Assembly: GCA_013696525.1 (NCBI GenBank) | Contig: JACCYK010000439.1 | Location: forward strand, 1-7,054 | Direction of reading: 5' to 3' | Length of the DNA: 7,054 nucleotides | Source: Chloroflexia bacterium | GTDB lineage: Bacteria; Chloroflexota; Chloroflexia; Thermomicrobiales; UBA6265 | Shown here: positions 1 through 7,054 of the stretch, piece after piece | Numbering within the stretch: position 1 is the stretch's first letter | How the letters are laid out: each line of letters starts with the position of its first letter | Notes under the pieces: model-generated | What the model was told of the DNA's origin: nothing | The model's database searches: none | Seen by the model: only the letters and a program-made list of their open reading frames with translations | Program-made: the position numbers and the translations under genes

Positions 1-1511
1 TCTACCGGCAACCACCAATGCCCCAACGTCCCGTCGCACGGAATCTCATCGTCGGCGGCTACCATCCGGCGATGAGAGAAGGCCCACGGGTTTGCGCACC
101 AACCGCGATTTCCTGCCTCGGCGGGCCGATAGTCGCGACAGTTCTGGCAGACTCGTGGGAGGTGGGCCGAGAGGTCGAGTCCGGAGAGGTCGAACGCATA
201 GGCGCTGTCGTCGTCTTCTGCAACAACATCAACCGTTAACCAAGGTTCGTCGGCAATGTTACTTTCGATCTCTGGTGCATCGATCGGGTCCTCGGTGTCG
301 GCGGCGGCTGCCAGGGAAGCACCTAATTGCGACTCCGGCGTCTTGTTGTCGTAATCCACACCGTGGCGCTCAAGCTCCGCAAACGGCAGGTCGTCCCGCC
401 GCTCCCTGACGTTCTGGTCCAGATCACGTTGCCATCCAACCGTGTCATCTGAGGCAGTTCGCGCATAGTGATTGCGGATGTCGAATTCGGCGGTTCCATG
501 GGTGGCTGGGCCAGTGTCGTCAGGTTGGAACGTGCCGTCGTCGCCCCGGAGGGATACGTCGGTCGTGTGCGGCCGGGGATCTTGCTCAGCCTGGACTTGG
601 CGACGAGATGGGGACATGCCGCCAGGATCAGTGTCAAGCGTCGCTGCACGCAACTGGGAGTCAACCGGCCGCCGATCGCCGGTCTCTTCTTCAATCGGTT
701 TTTGGGTGGGGGGTGTCTCCCGTTCGCCCTCATTGCCGTCGATATCATCCGAGGCAGCCGCGGAACGCGGTCCTGCCGGTTGCGCGTCTGATCCGATTCG
801 GGCATGAGGCGCGGGTCGGTCGTTTTCACTGGTTTCGATCATCGCCTCTGGGTCGCTGTTGCCGACCGCGTCGTGGTGGTGGTGAGCGGTAGTGCCCGCA
901 GGTGCGGTGGCTGGATGGTCGTCAGGCCGAGCGGCCTCATTCGCAAACGCGGCGAGCATGGCGATCTCAGCGGTACGAGCCGCTTGCAGCCGACCGCGTT
1001 CTCGATACGTCTCGCGCGCTCGGATGATGGCGTTGCGCGTGCCAATGTCCGTCGCCGGACCGGTCGCGGCGGGCTCGATCGGTCCGCTGTTCGTCATCGC
1101 CCAATCCGGTACGAGCTCGCGGCGGTGGGCGTACGCCGGTGGCTCGCCAGCTGAGCCCAACTCGCTGAGGACAACATCGTCACCCCCGGTGCGTTGCGGT
1201 GATTGGCCAAGCGAATCTCCAACGTCGGATTGATCGGCGGCAAGGAGCGCGGCGATTTCTCGCTCGGTTGCGGGCGGCATCTTGCGGTGGGGGAAGGGGT
1301 CGGCAATCGCCGGCGCCCCGGCTAGGCTGCCGGCGTCGAGCTTCGGCTCCCATAAATCGTGGTCCCATTGGTCCCGGCAGGCGATCTCATGCTTGCGGAC
1401 CATAATCATCAGATCGCTGGTGACTTTGCGGAGGGGGTGGTGACACCAGCCACTACTCGCGAGGCGAGCTTCTTGAAAATAGCGGCAGGAGCCGCATGTA
1501 TGCTTGCTCAC
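1..1511 (-). CDS. Twin four-cysteine module protein with long acidic linker (3' end outside window)
   Basis: The frame is open without a stop from its start to the window edge (503 codons seen). I do not recognise a named family. Residues 6-56 form a module with C6, C9, C23 and C45, containing CGSC, GWC, an EIAC tetrapeptide and a W-E-P ending. Residues 455-502 repeat it with C455, C458, C472 and C492, containing CQNC, GWC, EIPC and a W-W-L-P ending. C-x2-C-x13-C is identical in both; the last spacing is 21 versus 19. Four conserved cysteines suggest a bound metal, zinc or a [4Fe-4S] cluster as in small HiPIP-like domains; this is inference. The linker is rich in Asp, Glu, Ala, Pro and Thr and probably disordered, with a likely helix at 157-195, a four-His run at 210-213 and a more ordered patch near 344-388. 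No signal peptide or membrane segment is visible. GTG at 1511 is preferred because GAGGG lies six bases upstream; the ATG at 1517 abuts that SD. The gene is divergent from miaB. Confidence 0.82.
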   Translation of the reverse strand, partial: MSKHTCGSCRYFQEARLASSGWCHHPLRKVTSDLMIMVRKHEIACRDQWDHDLWEPKLDAGSLAGAPAIADPFPHRKMPPATEREIAALLAADQSDVGDSLGQSPQRTGGDDVVLSELGSAGEPPAYAHRRELVPDWAMTNSGPIEPAATGPATDIGTRNAIIRARETYRERGRLQAARTAEIAMLAAFANEAARPDDHPATAPAGTTAHHHHDAVGNSDPEAMIETSENDRPAPHARIGSDAQPAGPRSAAASDDIDGNEGERETPPTQKPIEEETGDRRPVDSQLRAATLDTDPGGMSPSRRQVQAEQDPRPHTTDVSLRGDDGTFQPDDTGPATHGTAEFDIRNHYARTASDDTVGWQRDLDQNVRERRDDLPFAELERHGVDYDNKTPESQLGASLAAAADTEDPIDAPEIESNIADEPWLTVDVVAEDDDSAYAFDLSGLDLSAHLPRVCQNCRDYRPAEAGNRGWCANPWAFSHRRMVAADDEIPCDGTLGHWWLPV

Positions 1512-1583
1512 CCGCATCCCTCGCAAGACTCGTTACATGCACGGGTCCGTGCCGCTGACCGCGTCGGGCCGCGGAAGGAGCAT

Positions 1584-1602
1584 TTCGAGCCCCACGCTCG
1601 AA
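1584..1602 (-). repeat. Perfect inverted repeat in the leader of the twin-cysteine gene
   Basis: TTCGAGC and GCTCGAA are perfect 7-base arms around a 5-base loop. It lies downstream of the minus-strand promoter and upstream of the start codon. There is no T-tract, so it is a leader hairpin or protein-binding site rather than a terminator. Confidence 0.45.
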
Positions 1603-1654
1603 CATCCGACCGGCGTCCGTTCAGGAATTGAGACTTCCTACCCGCCGCGTCTCC

Positions 1655-1683
1655 ATTCTAGCAACCAGGCCAGGGGTTGTCTA
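1655..1683 (-). promoter_or_regulatory. Sigma-70-type promoter for the twin-cysteine gene
   Basis: Read on the minus strand, TAGACA (1683-1678) and TAGAAT (1660-1655) are separated by exactly 17 bases. Each hexamer matches the consensus at five of six positions, which is notable in such GC-rich DNA. Transcription would start near 1648 and leave a leader of about 137 bases before the GTG at 1511. Confidence 0.6.
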
Positions 1684-1737
1684 CGTGACACGAGCTCGGG
1701 CTTGGTACAGGCCGTCTTCGGCGGGACTCCATCAATG

Positions 1738-1743
1738 TATACT
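1738..1743 (+). promoter_or_regulatory. Candidate -10 element for miaB
   Basis: TATACT lies 91 bases upstream of the miaB start codon in an otherwise GC-rich stretch. No good -35 is present at normal spacing (TCTTCG at 17 bases), so this is a partial promoter match. It is the best plus-strand candidate in the gap. Confidence 0.4.
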
Positions 1744-1755
1744 TAGCGGTTGGTC

Positions 1756-1779
1756 CCGCCCTCATCATGAGAGGGGCGG
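1756..1779 (+). repeat. Bulged hairpin in the miaB 5' leader
   Basis: CCGCCCTC (1756-1763) pairs with GAGGGGCGG (1771-1779), with one extra G bulged and a seven-base loop. It lies just downstream of the candidate miaB -10, within the expected untranslated leader. There is no following T-tract, so a terminator role is unlikely. Confidence 0.35.
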
Positions 1780-1834
1780 ACGACGAACCGTGCGGCGAGC
1801 CGCGGGACTTTGACCGGACGCGAGGAATCACGCC

Positions 1835-3196
1835 ATGCAGGACAAGCCAACCATTACGCTTCACCCCGCCGCGAGCCCGGCTCGACTGGCCCCGAACGGC
1901 AAACACTTCTTCATCTGGACGATCGGATGCCAGATGAACGAGGCTGATAGCGCCAAGATTGCGGCGATGTTGCAGGAAGTCGGCTATCAACCGACCGACC
2001 GAGAAGACGATGCGGATATTGTTGTGCTGAACTCCTGCGTCGTTCGCCAAGCGGCCGAAGACAAGGTCGCCGGCAAGCTCAACTCGTTGATGCGGTTGAA
2101 ACGGGCGAAGCCGGAGGTGCCGGTGGTCCTCACCGGGTGCATGGTGACGAATCAGCAAGCGGCGCTTCAACAACGATTTCCCCACGTCGACCTGTTCTTC
2201 AATCCATCGGACTTCGGACAGCTCGAGCGCGTTGTTCCGGAGTTGGCCGATCTCGATGACGACCTGGCGGATCTGCCGCATTACTACTTGCCGGACTCCC
2301 CCGATTCTGCCGGGATCACGGCATTCGTCCCGATCATTTACGGCTGCAACTTCCTCTGCTCGTATTGCATCGTGCCCTACCGGCGAGGAAAGGAGCGAAG
2401 CCGGCCGCTGGCTGAGATCGTGGCCGAGGTCGGACATCTGGTTGGTCGTGGGGTGCGCGAGGTGACGCTCCTGGGACAAACGGTCAATGCGTACGGACAT
2501 GACCTGGCGGAGAAACCGGGCTTGGCCGATCTGTTGGGGGCGATCGACGCCATCCCCGGCCTGGAGCGGTTGCGGTTTTTGACTTCGCATCCAAACTATA
2601 TGTCGAACGACATCATCGACGCGATGGCTGAATTGGAATCGGTGTGCGAGCACATGAATCTGCCGGTACAAGCCGGGGACGACGACGTGCTGCGACGCAT
2701 GCGCCGGAAGTACAGCCGGGACTACTGGAGAGACCGCATCGCCTACACCCGAGCGCGGATGCCGGGAGCGACCATCGCGACCGACATCATCGTTGGGTTT
2801 CCGGGCGAAACCGAGGCGCAGTTCCAACAGACGTACGACCTGCTGGACGAAGTCAGATGTGACAAAGTTCACCTCGCGATGTACTCGCCACGGCCGGGCA
2901 CGCTGTCGGCGCGGTGGGAGGATGACATTCCGCACCACGAGAAGCAGCGACGACATCAGGCGTTGGAGACACTCCAGGAACATCACTGCACCGACCGAAA
3001 CGCCAAGCGTTTACACGACACTGTCGAGGTCCTCGTCGAAGGGATGGCCAAAGGGCGCTGGACGGGACGGACTCGTGGCAACACCCTGGTCCACTTCGCC
3101 GACGAGCGCCGGGTGCTGGGCAAGCTCGTTGCGGTGACGATCACCGAGACAAGCCCGTGGTTTCTCATCGGCAAGCCGGCTGGGCCGGTGCGCTAG
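1835..3196 (+). CDS. miaB: tRNA-2-methylthio-N6-dimethylallyladenosine synthase MiaB
   Basis: A 453-residue radical-SAM methylthiotransferase that adds a methylthio group to N6-isopentenyl-adenosine 37 of tRNAs reading UNN codons. It acts in the cytoplasm and needs two [4Fe-4S] clusters. The N-terminal UPF0004 domain has cluster cysteines C32 (GCQMNE), C68 (NSCVVR) and C102 (TGCM). The radical-SAM triad is C171, C175 and C178 in the C-x3-C-x2-C motif, followed by VPYRRGKERSRP, a hallmark of the MiaB/RimO/MtaB superfamily. LLGQTVNAYG, HMNLPVQAG and DIIVGFPGET follow, and a TRAM domain fills about residues 385-450. Full length for the family. GAGGAA eight to nine bases upstream supports the ATG. 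The TPR gene follows after a short gap, probably in the same transcript. MiaB is favoured over MtaB or RimO by the QMNEADS and RGKERSRP sequences and overall layout. One small oddity is Thr where MiaB usually has Asn in GQNVNAYG. Confidence 0.95.
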   Translation: MQDKPTITLHPAASPARLAPNGKHFFIWTIGCQMNEADSAKIAAMLQEVGYQPTDREDDADIVVLNSCVVRQAAEDKVAGKLNSLMRLKRAKPEVPVVLTGCMVTNQQAALQQRFPHVDLFFNPSDFGQLERVVPELADLDDDLADLPHYYLPDSPDSAGITAFVPIIYGCNFLCSYCIVPYRRGKERSRPLAEIVAEVGHLVGRGVREVTLLGQTVNAYGHDLAEKPGLADLLGAIDAIPGLERLRFLTSHPNYMSNDIIDAMAELESVCEHMNLPVQAGDDDVLRRMRRKYSRDYWRDRIAYTRARMPGATIATDIIVGFPGETEAQFQQTYDLLDEVRCDKVHLAMYSPRPGTLSARWEDDIPHHEKQRRHQALETLQEHHCTDRNAKRLHDTVEVLVEGMAKGRWTGRTRGNTLVHFADERRVLGKLVAVTITETSPWFLIGKPAGPVR

Positions 3197-3234
3197 GCAC
3201 GCACAATACAAAGCACGAAAGCATGGGAGCAGAA

Positions 3235-4101
3235 GTGGCACAATCAGCGGCGGTAACACGACGGCAAATGATCGAGGCGGCCCGGCAGGCAGGGCTGACA
3301 AACCAATGGGACGAAGCCATTTCGCTCAATCAGCAACTCATTGAGCGCATGCCGCGGGACGCCGAGGCGCACAACCGGTTGGGACGGGCCTTCCTGGCCC
3401 TCGGCCGCCACGCGGAAGCAACGGACGCCTATTCCGATGCCCTGCGGGCCGATCCCGCGAACCTGATCGCCCGGCGCAACCTCCAACGCCTGGAGACGAT
3501 CCGCCACCGTGGCGATCCTGCTCTGGCCGCTGCCGGCACGCCGGCGGCGGATGCCGAGGCGGAGGTGACGCCGCGGAGGTCGGTCTTCATCGAGGAAGTA
3601 GGGAAGACGTGGGTCGACGAACTGGTGAACCCACCCGCGATTGATGTGCTGGTCGACGTCTATCCCGCTACCGAGCTTGAGCTCAACATGGAAGGCAACC
3701 GGCTGATCGTTACCACGCGAGACGGTCGCCGGCTCGGAGAGATCGAGGCCAAGACCGCCGAACGGGTGATCGAGCTGATGACCCGGGGCAACCGGTACGA
3801 AGCCTACTCACTCGGGCTTTCGGCCCAAAGCCTGCGTGTTATCTTGCGGGAAGTGTTTCACGATCCGGCCCAGGCTGATACCTTCTCCTTCCCCCGTCAG
3901 ATCACGTCGCGTGCATACCTACGAGAACGTGACTTGCTGCGCCAGCGCGACGAAGCCGACTTTTTCTTCTCTGATGATGAGGACGAAGAGGATGAGAGGA
4001 CGGCGGGCGAAGCGGACGATGAGGAACCGAGCGAGTCCGACCAGGGACAGTTCGCTGATGACACGGTCACCGTTGTTGAGGAAGAAGACTCGACGCTGTA
4101 A
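3235..4101 (+). CDS. TPR protein with unassigned central domain and acidic C-terminal tail
   Basis: A soluble protein of about 288 residues. Residues 12-83 form about two tetratricopeptide repeats, with canonical N-x-L-G-x-A-x-x-x-L-G and A-x-x-x-Y-x-x-A-L-x-x-D-P signatures, so a protein-binding role is likely. A variable stretch follows, then a compact alpha/beta-looking region at about 125-235, including a G-N-R-L-I-V strand, D-G-R-R-L-G-E-I and a helix ending in LMTRG. That stretch faintly resembles a HIRAN-like arrangement, but I cannot assign it. The last 50 residues are dominated by Asp and Glu and are probably disordered. GTG at 3235 is chosen because GGGAG lies five bases upstream; an in-frame ATG at 3223 is the alternative, adding four residues, but lacks an SD. 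It starts 38 bases after miaB and is likely co-transcribed. No enzymatic motif is visible. Confidence 0.85.
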   Translation: MAQSAAVTRRQMIEAARQAGLTNQWDEAISLNQQLIERMPRDAEAHNRLGRAFLALGRHAEATDAYSDALRADPANLIARRNLQRLETIRHRGDPALAAAGTPAADAEAEVTPRRSVFIEEVGKTWVDELVNPPAIDVLVDVYPATELELNMEGNRLIVTTRDGRRLGEIEAKTAERVIELMTRGNRYEAYSLGLSAQSLRVILREVFHDPAQADTFSFPRQITSRAYLRERDLLRQRDEADFFFSDDEDEEDERTAGEADDEEPSESDQGQFADDTVTVVEEEDSTL

Positions 4102-6030: not shown

Positions 6031-6333
6031 ATGAATTCGAGCATGATCGGGAAGATCGAGAAGGCGCACCGGTACGCCCGCGAGCCGGAGCGGGTGCAGA
6101 TCCAGGCAATCGAGTCGACCTTTCGTGGCGGTCATGATGAGTACCATGTCCGCTTCGACGACGGCGCATGGAACTGCTCTTGTCACACCTTCTCGTCTCA
6201 TGTGATCGGCACCTGTAGCCACATCATGGCGATGCAGCAGATGCTCGGCACGATGCTCCCCGCGAATGCTCGCTTTTGGGAAGAAGAAGCCTCTCCGCTG
6301 AAGGCCGGGGCGGCGGTCGGCGTCGCCGGTTGA
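6031..6333 (+). CDS. Small SWIM zinc-finger protein
   Basis: A 100-residue protein with a complete SWIM motif, C49-x-C51-x10-C62-x-H64, in the usual setting: a strand with a W (W47-N-C) followed by C-S-H-I-M-A-M-Q. SWIM fingers bind zinc and are associated with DNA or protein binding. The N-terminal part (I-G-K-I-E-K-A-x-R-Y-A-x-E-P-E-R) precedes beta strands leading to the finger, as in stand-alone SWIM proteins of Actinobacteria and Chloroflexi. The last ~20 residues are a variable Ala/Gly-rich tail. The ATG is firmly set by AAGGAG seven bases upstream. It follows the sORF/terminator leader and ends 12 bases from the convergent cyclic-di-AMP receptor gene. Its partner and target are unknown. 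Confidence 0.88.
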   Translation: MNSSMIGKIEKAHRYAREPERVQIQAIESTFRGGHDEYHVRFDDGAWNCSCHTFSSHVIGTCSHIMAMQQMLGTMLPANARFWEEEASPLKAGAAVGVAG

Positions 6334-6345
6334 CACCGGGGGTCG

Positions 6346-6687
6346 CTAATCGAAGCGCTCGTGGCGAGTGACCCGGGCGATAAAGGCGACCCCGCCAGCG
6401 ATGGTGACGCGGGCAATGCCGGACGCGTAGAGTTCCGCGAGCTCAGGTGAGGGATCGCTGATGGGCCGGTCCGGCCGAGCCCGACAAAGACTGCTCAGGA
6501 GGGCAAGACAAGCGTGCACTTCACCCACCGGTACCCCAAGCAGCAGCGTCGAGTTCCCGGCACGTAGGTAGCCGCCGCTGCTCGCGACACGGGTGGCGCC
6601 AAATCCGCTGGCCGATAAACTCCCAAGGAGACGATCGGCGTCAAAATCTTGGACAATGGCGATGATCAGGCGGTCGATCGACGGCAC
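6346..6687 (-). CDS. Cyclic-di-AMP receptor, DarA/PstA-like P-II-fold protein
   Basis: A 113-residue cytoplasmic protein of the cyclic-di-AMP receptor family (formerly DUF970; trimeric P-II-like DarA/PstA). It opens with R-L-I-I-A-I-V-Q-D, followed by A-D-R-L-L at 17-21. The ligand-loop signature is at 28-47: G-F-x-A-T-R-V-A-S-S-G-G-Y-L-R-A-G-N-S-T, with T32, G38-G39 and N45 at positions expected to contact ligand. L-L-L-G-V closes the core, and a C-terminal strand has G-G-V-A-F-I-A-R-V. The GTG at 6687 is preferred because GAGAG lies seven bases upstream and it gives the family's usual N terminus. An ATG at 6720 would add 11 residues without an SD. It is convergent with the SWIM gene and divergent from aconitase X. 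No cyclic-di-AMP cyclase is in the window. Cognate partners of this family are poorly known. Confidence 0.9.
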   Translation of the reverse strand: MPSIDRLIIAIVQDFDADRLLGSLSASGFGATRVASSGGYLRAGNSTLLLGVPVGEVHACLALLSSLCRARPDRPISDPSPELAELYASGIARVTIAGGVAFIARVTRHERFD

Positions 6688-6747
6688 CGGGCAACTCTCT
6701 CCCCGCATCGGGCGCATCATACCGCGGCATGGCGACGTTGGCGAGCA

Positions 6748-6779
6748 ATCGCCGTGAGCTTGGCTCGTGCCGCGGCGAT
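6748..6779 (+). repeat. Inverted repeat spanning the aconitase X start codon
   Basis: ATCGCCG (6748-6754) pairs with CGGCGAT (6773-6779), and GAGC (6756-6759) with GCTC (6763-6766), around a three-base loop and an asymmetric internal loop. The GTG start is inside the structure. It could be a translational control element, an operator, or chance in GC-rich sequence. Confidence 0.35.
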
Positions 6780-7054
6780 CGTCACTCTAACGGACGAAGA
6801 GCAAAGCATGCTTGCTGGAGCCGGCGGCGAGGCGACCCGGCTGGCAATGCGGATCCTCGTCCGGATGGCGCCGTTGTATGGCGCCGATCGGCTCCTGGAG
6901 GTGACGAGGGCGCATATCGACGGCTGCATCTACGAGGGTGACGCCGGTTTGGAGTTCGCGGAACGACTGGCCCGGCTTGGTGGAGTGGTGCGCGTCCCGA
7001 CGAGCCTCAACGTCGTCTCACTCGACCGCTCGCGATGGCGAGAGCTGGGAACCC
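6754..7054 (+). CDS. Aconitase X family dehydratase, N-terminal part (cut by window end)
   Basis: One hundred codons are visible, with no stop before the edge. The start of the aconitase X (DUF521) large domain is clear: L-T-D-E-E-Q-x-M-L-A-G at 12-22, Y-G-A-D-R-L at 42-47, A-H-I-D-G-C-I-Y at 53-60 and G-D-A-G-L-E-F-A-E at 62-70, then V-P-T-S-L-N at 81-86. Characterised members are cis-3-hydroxy-L-proline dehydratases in bacteria and phosphomevalonate dehydratases in archaea; the visible part cannot separate these. GTG at 6754 is the first start in the open frame; TTG at 6760 is a second option. Neither has a strong SD, and both lie in a hairpin. The gene is divergent from the cyclic-di-AMP receptor, with 66 bases between the chosen starts. 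Confidence 0.88.
   Translation, partial: MSLARAAAIVTLTDEEQSMLAGAGGEATRLAMRILVRMAPLYGADRLLEVTRAHIDGCIYEGDAGLEFAERLARLGGVVRVPTSLNVVSLDRSRWRELGT

Follow-up and report, generated by a model that had tools for sequence, protein, structure and literature searches.

High-potential iron-sulfur proteins (HiPIPs) are known as exported electron carriers, and HiPIP-like domains as the small subunits of anaerobic radical enzymes. The excerpted parts of PMC12358834 describe the HiPIP-like subunits found in glycyl radical enzymes as cytoplasmic proteins that bind [4Fe-4S] and exert their effect on a partner instead of serving as free carriers; the beta subunits keep the cluster >30 Å from the active site and are thought to control the shape of the partner, and such subunits can work by docking and conformational control. 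In the cytoskeletal field, Csd5 of Helicobacter pylori binds bactofilin inside the cell and peptidoglycan outside it through an SH3 domain (PMC9507126, in excerpt). Here we describe a gene for a protein with two modules of predicted HiPIP fold, found at the left end of a contig from a Chloroflexia bacterium (JACCYK010000439.1, assembly GCA_013696525.1). The window analysed is this entire 7054-base contig (G000:C158), one of 689 in the genome. We tentatively read the product as a cytoplasmic adaptor with two heads that serves the RodZ cell-shape machinery, in which two modules of predicted HiPIP fold, likely holding [4Fe-4S] clusters, are joined by a long, probably disordered linker, and we give this reading slightly less than an even chance.

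Two homologous modules in one protein

The gene lies on the minus strand, in a frame that is open for 503 residues from a GTG codon at position 1511 to the left contig edge; since the window is the whole contig and the frame runs off its end, the stop codon is not visible. All eight cysteines of the protein sit in two modules, at residues 6, 9, 23 and 45 and at residues 455, 458, 472 and 492, with spacings of C-x2-C-x13-C-x21-C in the N-terminal (N) module and C-x2-C-x13-C-x19-C in the C-terminal (C) module. Local alignment of residues 1-60 with residues 444-503 gave a score of 60, which was reached in none of 5000 shuffles (mean 24.4, maximum 54), and two CxxCx13C motifs occurred in none of 5000 shuffles of the whole window protein. 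In a profile-profile comparison, the N and C modules matched with a probability of 96.7% and an E-value of 3e-10. The exact cysteine positions, the shuffle tests and the profile match all bear out an initial annotation of the window, made from the letters alone, which had described two homologous four-cysteine modules with these spacings.

The same annotation considered a direct internal duplication very likely. A profile of the single module found in a paralogous protein (described below) matched the N and C modules with E-values near 1e-17 each, the match of N to C being the weaker one. In a tree of 69 modules, the N modules (26) and the C modules (29) each formed one strongly supported group, and the single-module type (14) formed one group with weak support. 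On these sequence comparisons the N, C and paralogue modules are homologous. Because N and C are each closer by E-value to the paralogue than to each other, and the tree has three groups, a fusion of two single-module genes would be as good an account of the origin as internal duplication.

Distribution and conservation of the family

Matches to the twin-module protein were found in 59 of the 61 genomes of our set (the window's own and 60 relatives), and a search of 5.8 billion proteins returned 273 twin homologues at E <= 0.001; counts given below per 120 or 119 twin homologues are among the matches listed, 120 of the 273. The rows of alignments A1-A3 were picked by a pattern demanding the first three cysteines, so that cysteine invariance in them is partly built in; the two sets of 120 homologues, one for the twin protein and one for the paralogue, were found without a cysteine pattern and provide a fairer test of conservation. 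Both modules were present by pattern in 119/120 twin homologues, the remaining one (P0084) starting inside the first module; the cysteines, on which the initial annotation had let its idea of a duplicated metal site depend, are kept.

The linker between the modules is 112-486 residues long in 119 twin homologues (candidate length was limited), is rich in A, P, R, E, S and D, and is nearly cysteine-free. Its acidic character, pointed out in the initial annotation, is confirmed in the window protein (Table 1) and is seen in 104/119 homologues. The linker sequence is poorly conserved apart from an EDVVVG-like motif, which was detected by pattern in 55/120 homologues. Behind the second module, a tail carries an SxHxxPTP-like motif (116/120) and, in the single relative modelled, is predicted to finish with a helix; the contig end removes this tail in the window.

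Homologues with one module and with two, which the initial annotation had proposed looking for, were both found, and the twin layout is a conserved family of the order Thermomicrobiales. The named records matched by the family profile (35 loci, a few of them single-module) are assigned to Thermomicrobium, Sphaerobacter, Thermalbibacter, Thermomicrobiales, Thermomicrobiaceae, Sphaerobacteraceae, Chloroflexia and Chloroflexi. At the level of the class, the module is present in 67 of 158 genomes, 59 of these in the order. One genome outside the order (G149) also carries the twin protein, at locus L110 (5842-6672), where neither rodZ nor miaB is present in the 11 kb fetched; the Pfam HIPIP match of this protein is stronger than that of the window protein (E 0.0042; 17.8 bits against a cut-off of 22, and so below it). 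Nine of the weak module matches elsewhere in the phylum were fetched. In six of them (L121, L122, L124, L126, L127 and L129; family f33) a module-like four-cysteine stretch comes directly after a CPHC...CWVC-like one, and these proteins are possibly a further use of the module. The other three comprise a lone similar stretch (L123) and two loci with nothing alike (L125, L128).

The hydropathy maximum is 0.63 in the window protein and below 1.6 in all 120 twin homologues, and none of them shows a membrane-like stretch. No export signal was seen in the twin protein by hydropathy, the first cysteine lying already at residue 6. The position of this cysteine and the lack of a membrane-like stretch make the cytoplasm the most likely location of the twin protein, in contrast to the exported HiPIPs.

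Predicted fold and cluster

In profile searches of the PDB, HiPIPs ranked first for the N, C and single-module profiles, at weak E-values (best 0.02-0.13). For a matched control, the cysteine columns were held fixed and the other profile columns were shuffled (two controls): HiPIPs made up 4/4 hits with the real columns, and 0/5 and 0/1 with the shuffled ones. A whole-length twin profile compared with PDB sequences placed PioC first (E 0.27), followed by two unrelated proteins (E 2.5 and 2.6). When AlphaFold models were compared by VIA-align, each of the 13 entries listed per module was either a HiPIP or a HiPIP-like glycyl radical enzyme subunit, with modest Z-scores (up to 4.1 and 4.7 for the two modules), and the top row for both was 2y8n_B, a glycyl radical enzyme subunit. 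The prediction for both modules is thus a HiPIP-like fold, and each likely holds a [4Fe-4S] cluster. The initial annotation had expected related folds at the two ends, which the matches of both models agree with, and had left the choice between zinc and iron-sulfur open; a metal or cluster site remains likely, and the profiles and predicted folds narrow it to a HiPIP-like [4Fe-4S] fold.

Its remark that no named family has this layout stands in so far as none of the curated families searched reaches its cut-off, although the predicted fold is one already known. The window protein scored 16.1 bits against Pfam HIPIP (PF01355; gathering cut-off 22), the matches to PF18524 (HPIP_like) stayed below cut-off (E 0.17 and 0.019), and NCBIfam matched neither the window protein nor the SH3 paralogue nor a short relative of the twin type. 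Membership of the classical HiPIPs was rejected on this score under the Pfam cut-off and on the count of PF01355, present in 0/61 genomes at E <= 0.01 (the control matches 1/14 known genomes). A phage origin was likewise rejected, no PHROGs match being found for the three proteins searched.

Gene neighbourhood of the twin-module gene

We collected 42 distinct twin loci, of which 38 have at least 900 bp of downstream and 39 at least 1200 bp of upstream sequence. A rodZ-like frame is the next gene downstream, on the same strand, at 37/38 loci, opening <=259 bp from the stop codon of the twin gene; the lone exception is L110, outside the order. Two of the rodZ-like proteins were scanned, and HTH_25 was above cut-off in both, while RodZ_C was above it in one and below it in the other; the N-termini of these two match an NCBIfam RodZ model below its cut-off. 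Upstream, a divergent gene which we take to be miaB (Table 1) is present at 32/39 loci. No miaB was found at the other seven (L037, L040, L050, L051, L110, L116 and L117), and since six of these keep rodZ as the next gene, rodZ is the tighter link. Other genes near the twin gene are also conserved in the fetched relatives. Both the rodZ context and the bactofilin context described below fall outside the window, beyond what the initial annotation had before it. rodZ was not found in the window's own genome, which shows little because that genome is 79% complete and the contig ends where rodZ should follow. MreB is the usual partner of RodZ. It was matched at E < 1e-70 in 59/61 genomes (a looser count of 60 includes Hsp70-like matches), with a model that also matches control genomes presumed to be without MreB.

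A membrane-anchored paralogue beside bactofilin genes

In the paralogue, one N-terminal module is followed by a variable stretch, then by a membrane helix and an SH3 domain. Homologues number 504, and the counts per 120 are again among the matches listed. The module was recognized by pattern in 117/120, the exceptions (P0182, P0193 and P0231) starting inside it; a membrane-like stretch was present in 120/120, and in 119/120 there are more K/R before this stretch than after it. Given this bias, the paralogue module should face the cytoplasm. An SH3_3 match was precomputed for most of the 120, and in our own scans it was above cut-off in L112 and just below in L052.

Gene context was examined for 30 single-module genes, and bactofilin frames lie upstream on the same strand at 17 of them. 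The SH3-type paralogue is directly downstream of bactofilin genes in 16/17 cases in the order (exception L118) and in 0/8 outside it, while short single-module genes without SH3 have a bactofilin upstream in 1/5 (L119). A Pfam check of the bactofilins found PF04519 in seven proteins of five loci, one of the seven being a fragment below cut-off. The genome from which the window comes has its paralogue at L052, behind a bactofilin fragment located at the start of a contig. Outside the order, the neighbours of the SH3 paralogue included no cytoskeletal family in ten proteins scanned (L108, L109, L111, L112 and L118). Two of the short single-module proteins without SH3, both from one genome (G036; L061 5691-6299 and L063 5989-6456), share a C-terminal WP+FPxV-like stretch and have no Pfam match.

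Proposed function and alternatives

The twin gene stands directly before rodZ in nearly every relative examined, so the protein likely serves the cell-shape machinery. In the adaptor proposed here, both heads would be docking domains built round clusters, on the precedent of the HiPIP-like glycyl radical enzyme subunits. The adjacency of rodZ suggests that one head may dock on RodZ or on a protein bound to it; the second head would have its site in another part of the envelope-growth machinery, and the linker would bridge the gap and let the two docked sites lie far apart. As a cluster can be lost or oxidised, its gain, loss or oxidation could change docking, which would then answer to iron or redox state. 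The SH3 paralogue downstream of bactofilins would do a matching job, with its module inside and its SH3 domain on the wall side. Three links in this reading are inferred: that the predicted fold carries a cluster, that gene order reflects binding, and that the cluster has a regulatory effect.

A different account keeps the iron-sulfur modules and dispenses with any tie to cell shape, attributing the adjacency to rodZ and bactofilin to slow change of gene order in Thermomicrobiales. That other genes round the twin gene are conserved too, and that neither the rodZ nor the bactofilin link was seen outside the order, would agree with it; on the other hand, two separate module genes adjoin two different cytoskeletal genes, and rodZ stays next at six of the seven loci where miaB was not found. 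We regard this account as unlikely, though deserving of some weight. Those six loci also speak against a two-cluster electron carrier, whose [4Fe-4S] modules would pass electrons, for example to the divergently encoded MiaB, with a linker that merely joins the redox heads. HiPIPs are established electron carriers and miaB is the divergent neighbour at 32/39 loci, but seven loci have no miaB that we could find, a carrier fits poorly with a membrane-anchored SH3 paralogue beside bactofilins, and the long linker would be unnecessary; such a role seems to us decidedly improbable.

The modules might instead bind zinc through their four cysteines and act as plain interaction domains without redox chemistry, in which case the adaptor role could stay the same. 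Four-cysteine sites are often zinc-binding, eL42 appeared in one of the three profile searches (E 1.3 and 7.3), and a CPHC...CWVC-like stretch precedes the module-like stretch in the six weak phylum matches. Yet HiPIPs top all three profiles and the shuffled controls give none, and the fold search puts HiPIP-like entries first for both modules, which leaves zinc with a low probability, if anything a little lower than that of the carrier. The best VIA row, 2y8n_B for both modules, would also suit an accessory subunit of a glycyl radical enzyme. PF01228 was found in 0/61 genomes, however (the control matches 3/14 known genomes), and Sphaerobacter thermophilus is an obligate aerobe according to the excerpted text of PMC3035262; we hold this role refuted on the PF01228 count, barring an enzyme without a detectable PF01228 domain, and give it next to no chance.

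The two-headed adaptor can be placed in a wider picture, in which HiPIP-type modules of the Thermomicrobiales are wired into the cytoskeleton, both as a soluble two-headed tether with RodZ and as a membrane anchor with one such module holding bactofilin filaments to the wall, so that shape and wall growth would answer directly to iron or redox state. We consider this wider picture rather doubtful. If true, the HiPIP fold would have been put to a new use, as a cytoplasmic pair on a long tether and as a membrane-anchored single module, each beside a different cytoskeletal gene. The proposal gives these unannotated proteins one testable idea, and a redox or iron link to wall growth is open to direct test. 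Among the literature titles surveyed, as titles, none names a link of iron-sulfur clusters or HiPIPs with bactofilin, RodZ or cell shape. Sphaerobacter thermophilus, a cultured member of the group, is described as pleomorphic in the excerpts of PMC3035262.

Features of the window

Table 1. Coordinates of the twin-module gene, its parts and its divergent neighbour in the 7054-base window.
Feature	Position	Strand	Evidence
Twin-module protein gene; stop and C-terminal tail cut off by contig end	3..1511	-	503 open residues; homologues in 59/61 genomes
N module, residues 1-57 (C6, C9, C23, C45)	1341..1511	-	Alignment A1 (25 rows); AlphaFold2 pLDDT 82.8; VIA rows all HiPIP/HiPIP-like
Long acidic, probably disordered linker	165..1340	-	0 cysteines; 75 D/E vs 34 K/R; little conservation and varying length among homologues
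Short linker motif DDVVLSE, residues 111-117	1161..1181	-	EDVVVG-like pattern in homologues
C module, residues 450-503 (C455, C458, C472, C492)	3..164	-	Alignment A2 (28 rows); C module and tail of a relative, pLDDT 80.0; VIA rows all HiPIP/HiPIP-like
Gap between twin gene and divergent miaB	1512..1834	.	Divergent layout in 32/39 loci with >=1200 bp upstream
miaB-like radical SAM methylthiotransferase, divergent neighbour	1835..3196	+	Radical_SAM, UPF0004 and TRAM above cut-off

The remainder of the window carries several other genes. Next to miaB, at 3157-4101 (+), lies a gene for a TPR protein whose C-terminal tail is strongly acidic; the two genes are neighbours in most fetched relatives as well (cluster 6). 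A small protein (6031-6333, +), which matches a SWIM zinc finger weakly (E 0.093, below cut-off), is conserved in the neighbourhood in relatives (cluster 9). Toward the right end are genes for a cyclic-di-AMP receptor family protein (6346-6720, -; PF06153, E 2.5e-19) and for the N-terminal part of aconitase X (6649-7054, +; PF04412, E 2.1e-29), which runs off the contig.

Comparison with known systems

The twin modules resemble the classical HiPIPs (PF01355; 2hip, PioC 6xyv) in predicted fold. A stretch of 2hip has the same C-x2-C-x13-C spacing and likewise an H-P behind the third cysteine, whereas its last cysteine follows at a spacing of 15, compared with 18-21 in the twin modules. The twin protein further differs from classical HiPIPs in scoring below the Pfam cut-off, in having no visible export signal, and in carrying two modules and a long linker in one chain. 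The small subunits of glycyl radical enzymes (HPAD, Bss, Mas; PF18524) supply the top VIA rows for both modules, but no such enzyme was found in the 61 genomes, PF18524 is below cut-off, and the twin protein has a long linker. The HPAD subunit also carries two clusters, yet totals 9.5 kDa in the excerpts of PMC12358834.

The SH3 paralogue is closest in layout to Csd5, which has a cytoplasmic N-terminus, a membrane helix and an outer SH3 domain (PMC9507126, in excerpt). The likeness is one of layout, the inner part of the paralogue being distinguished by its HiPIP-like module, and the association with bactofilin is by binding in Csd5 (PMC9507126, in excerpt) and by gene order in the paralogue. 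Set against these systems, the fold is the known part, and what is new is the pairing of two such modules on a long tether and the steady place of the module genes beside two kinds of cytoskeletal gene.
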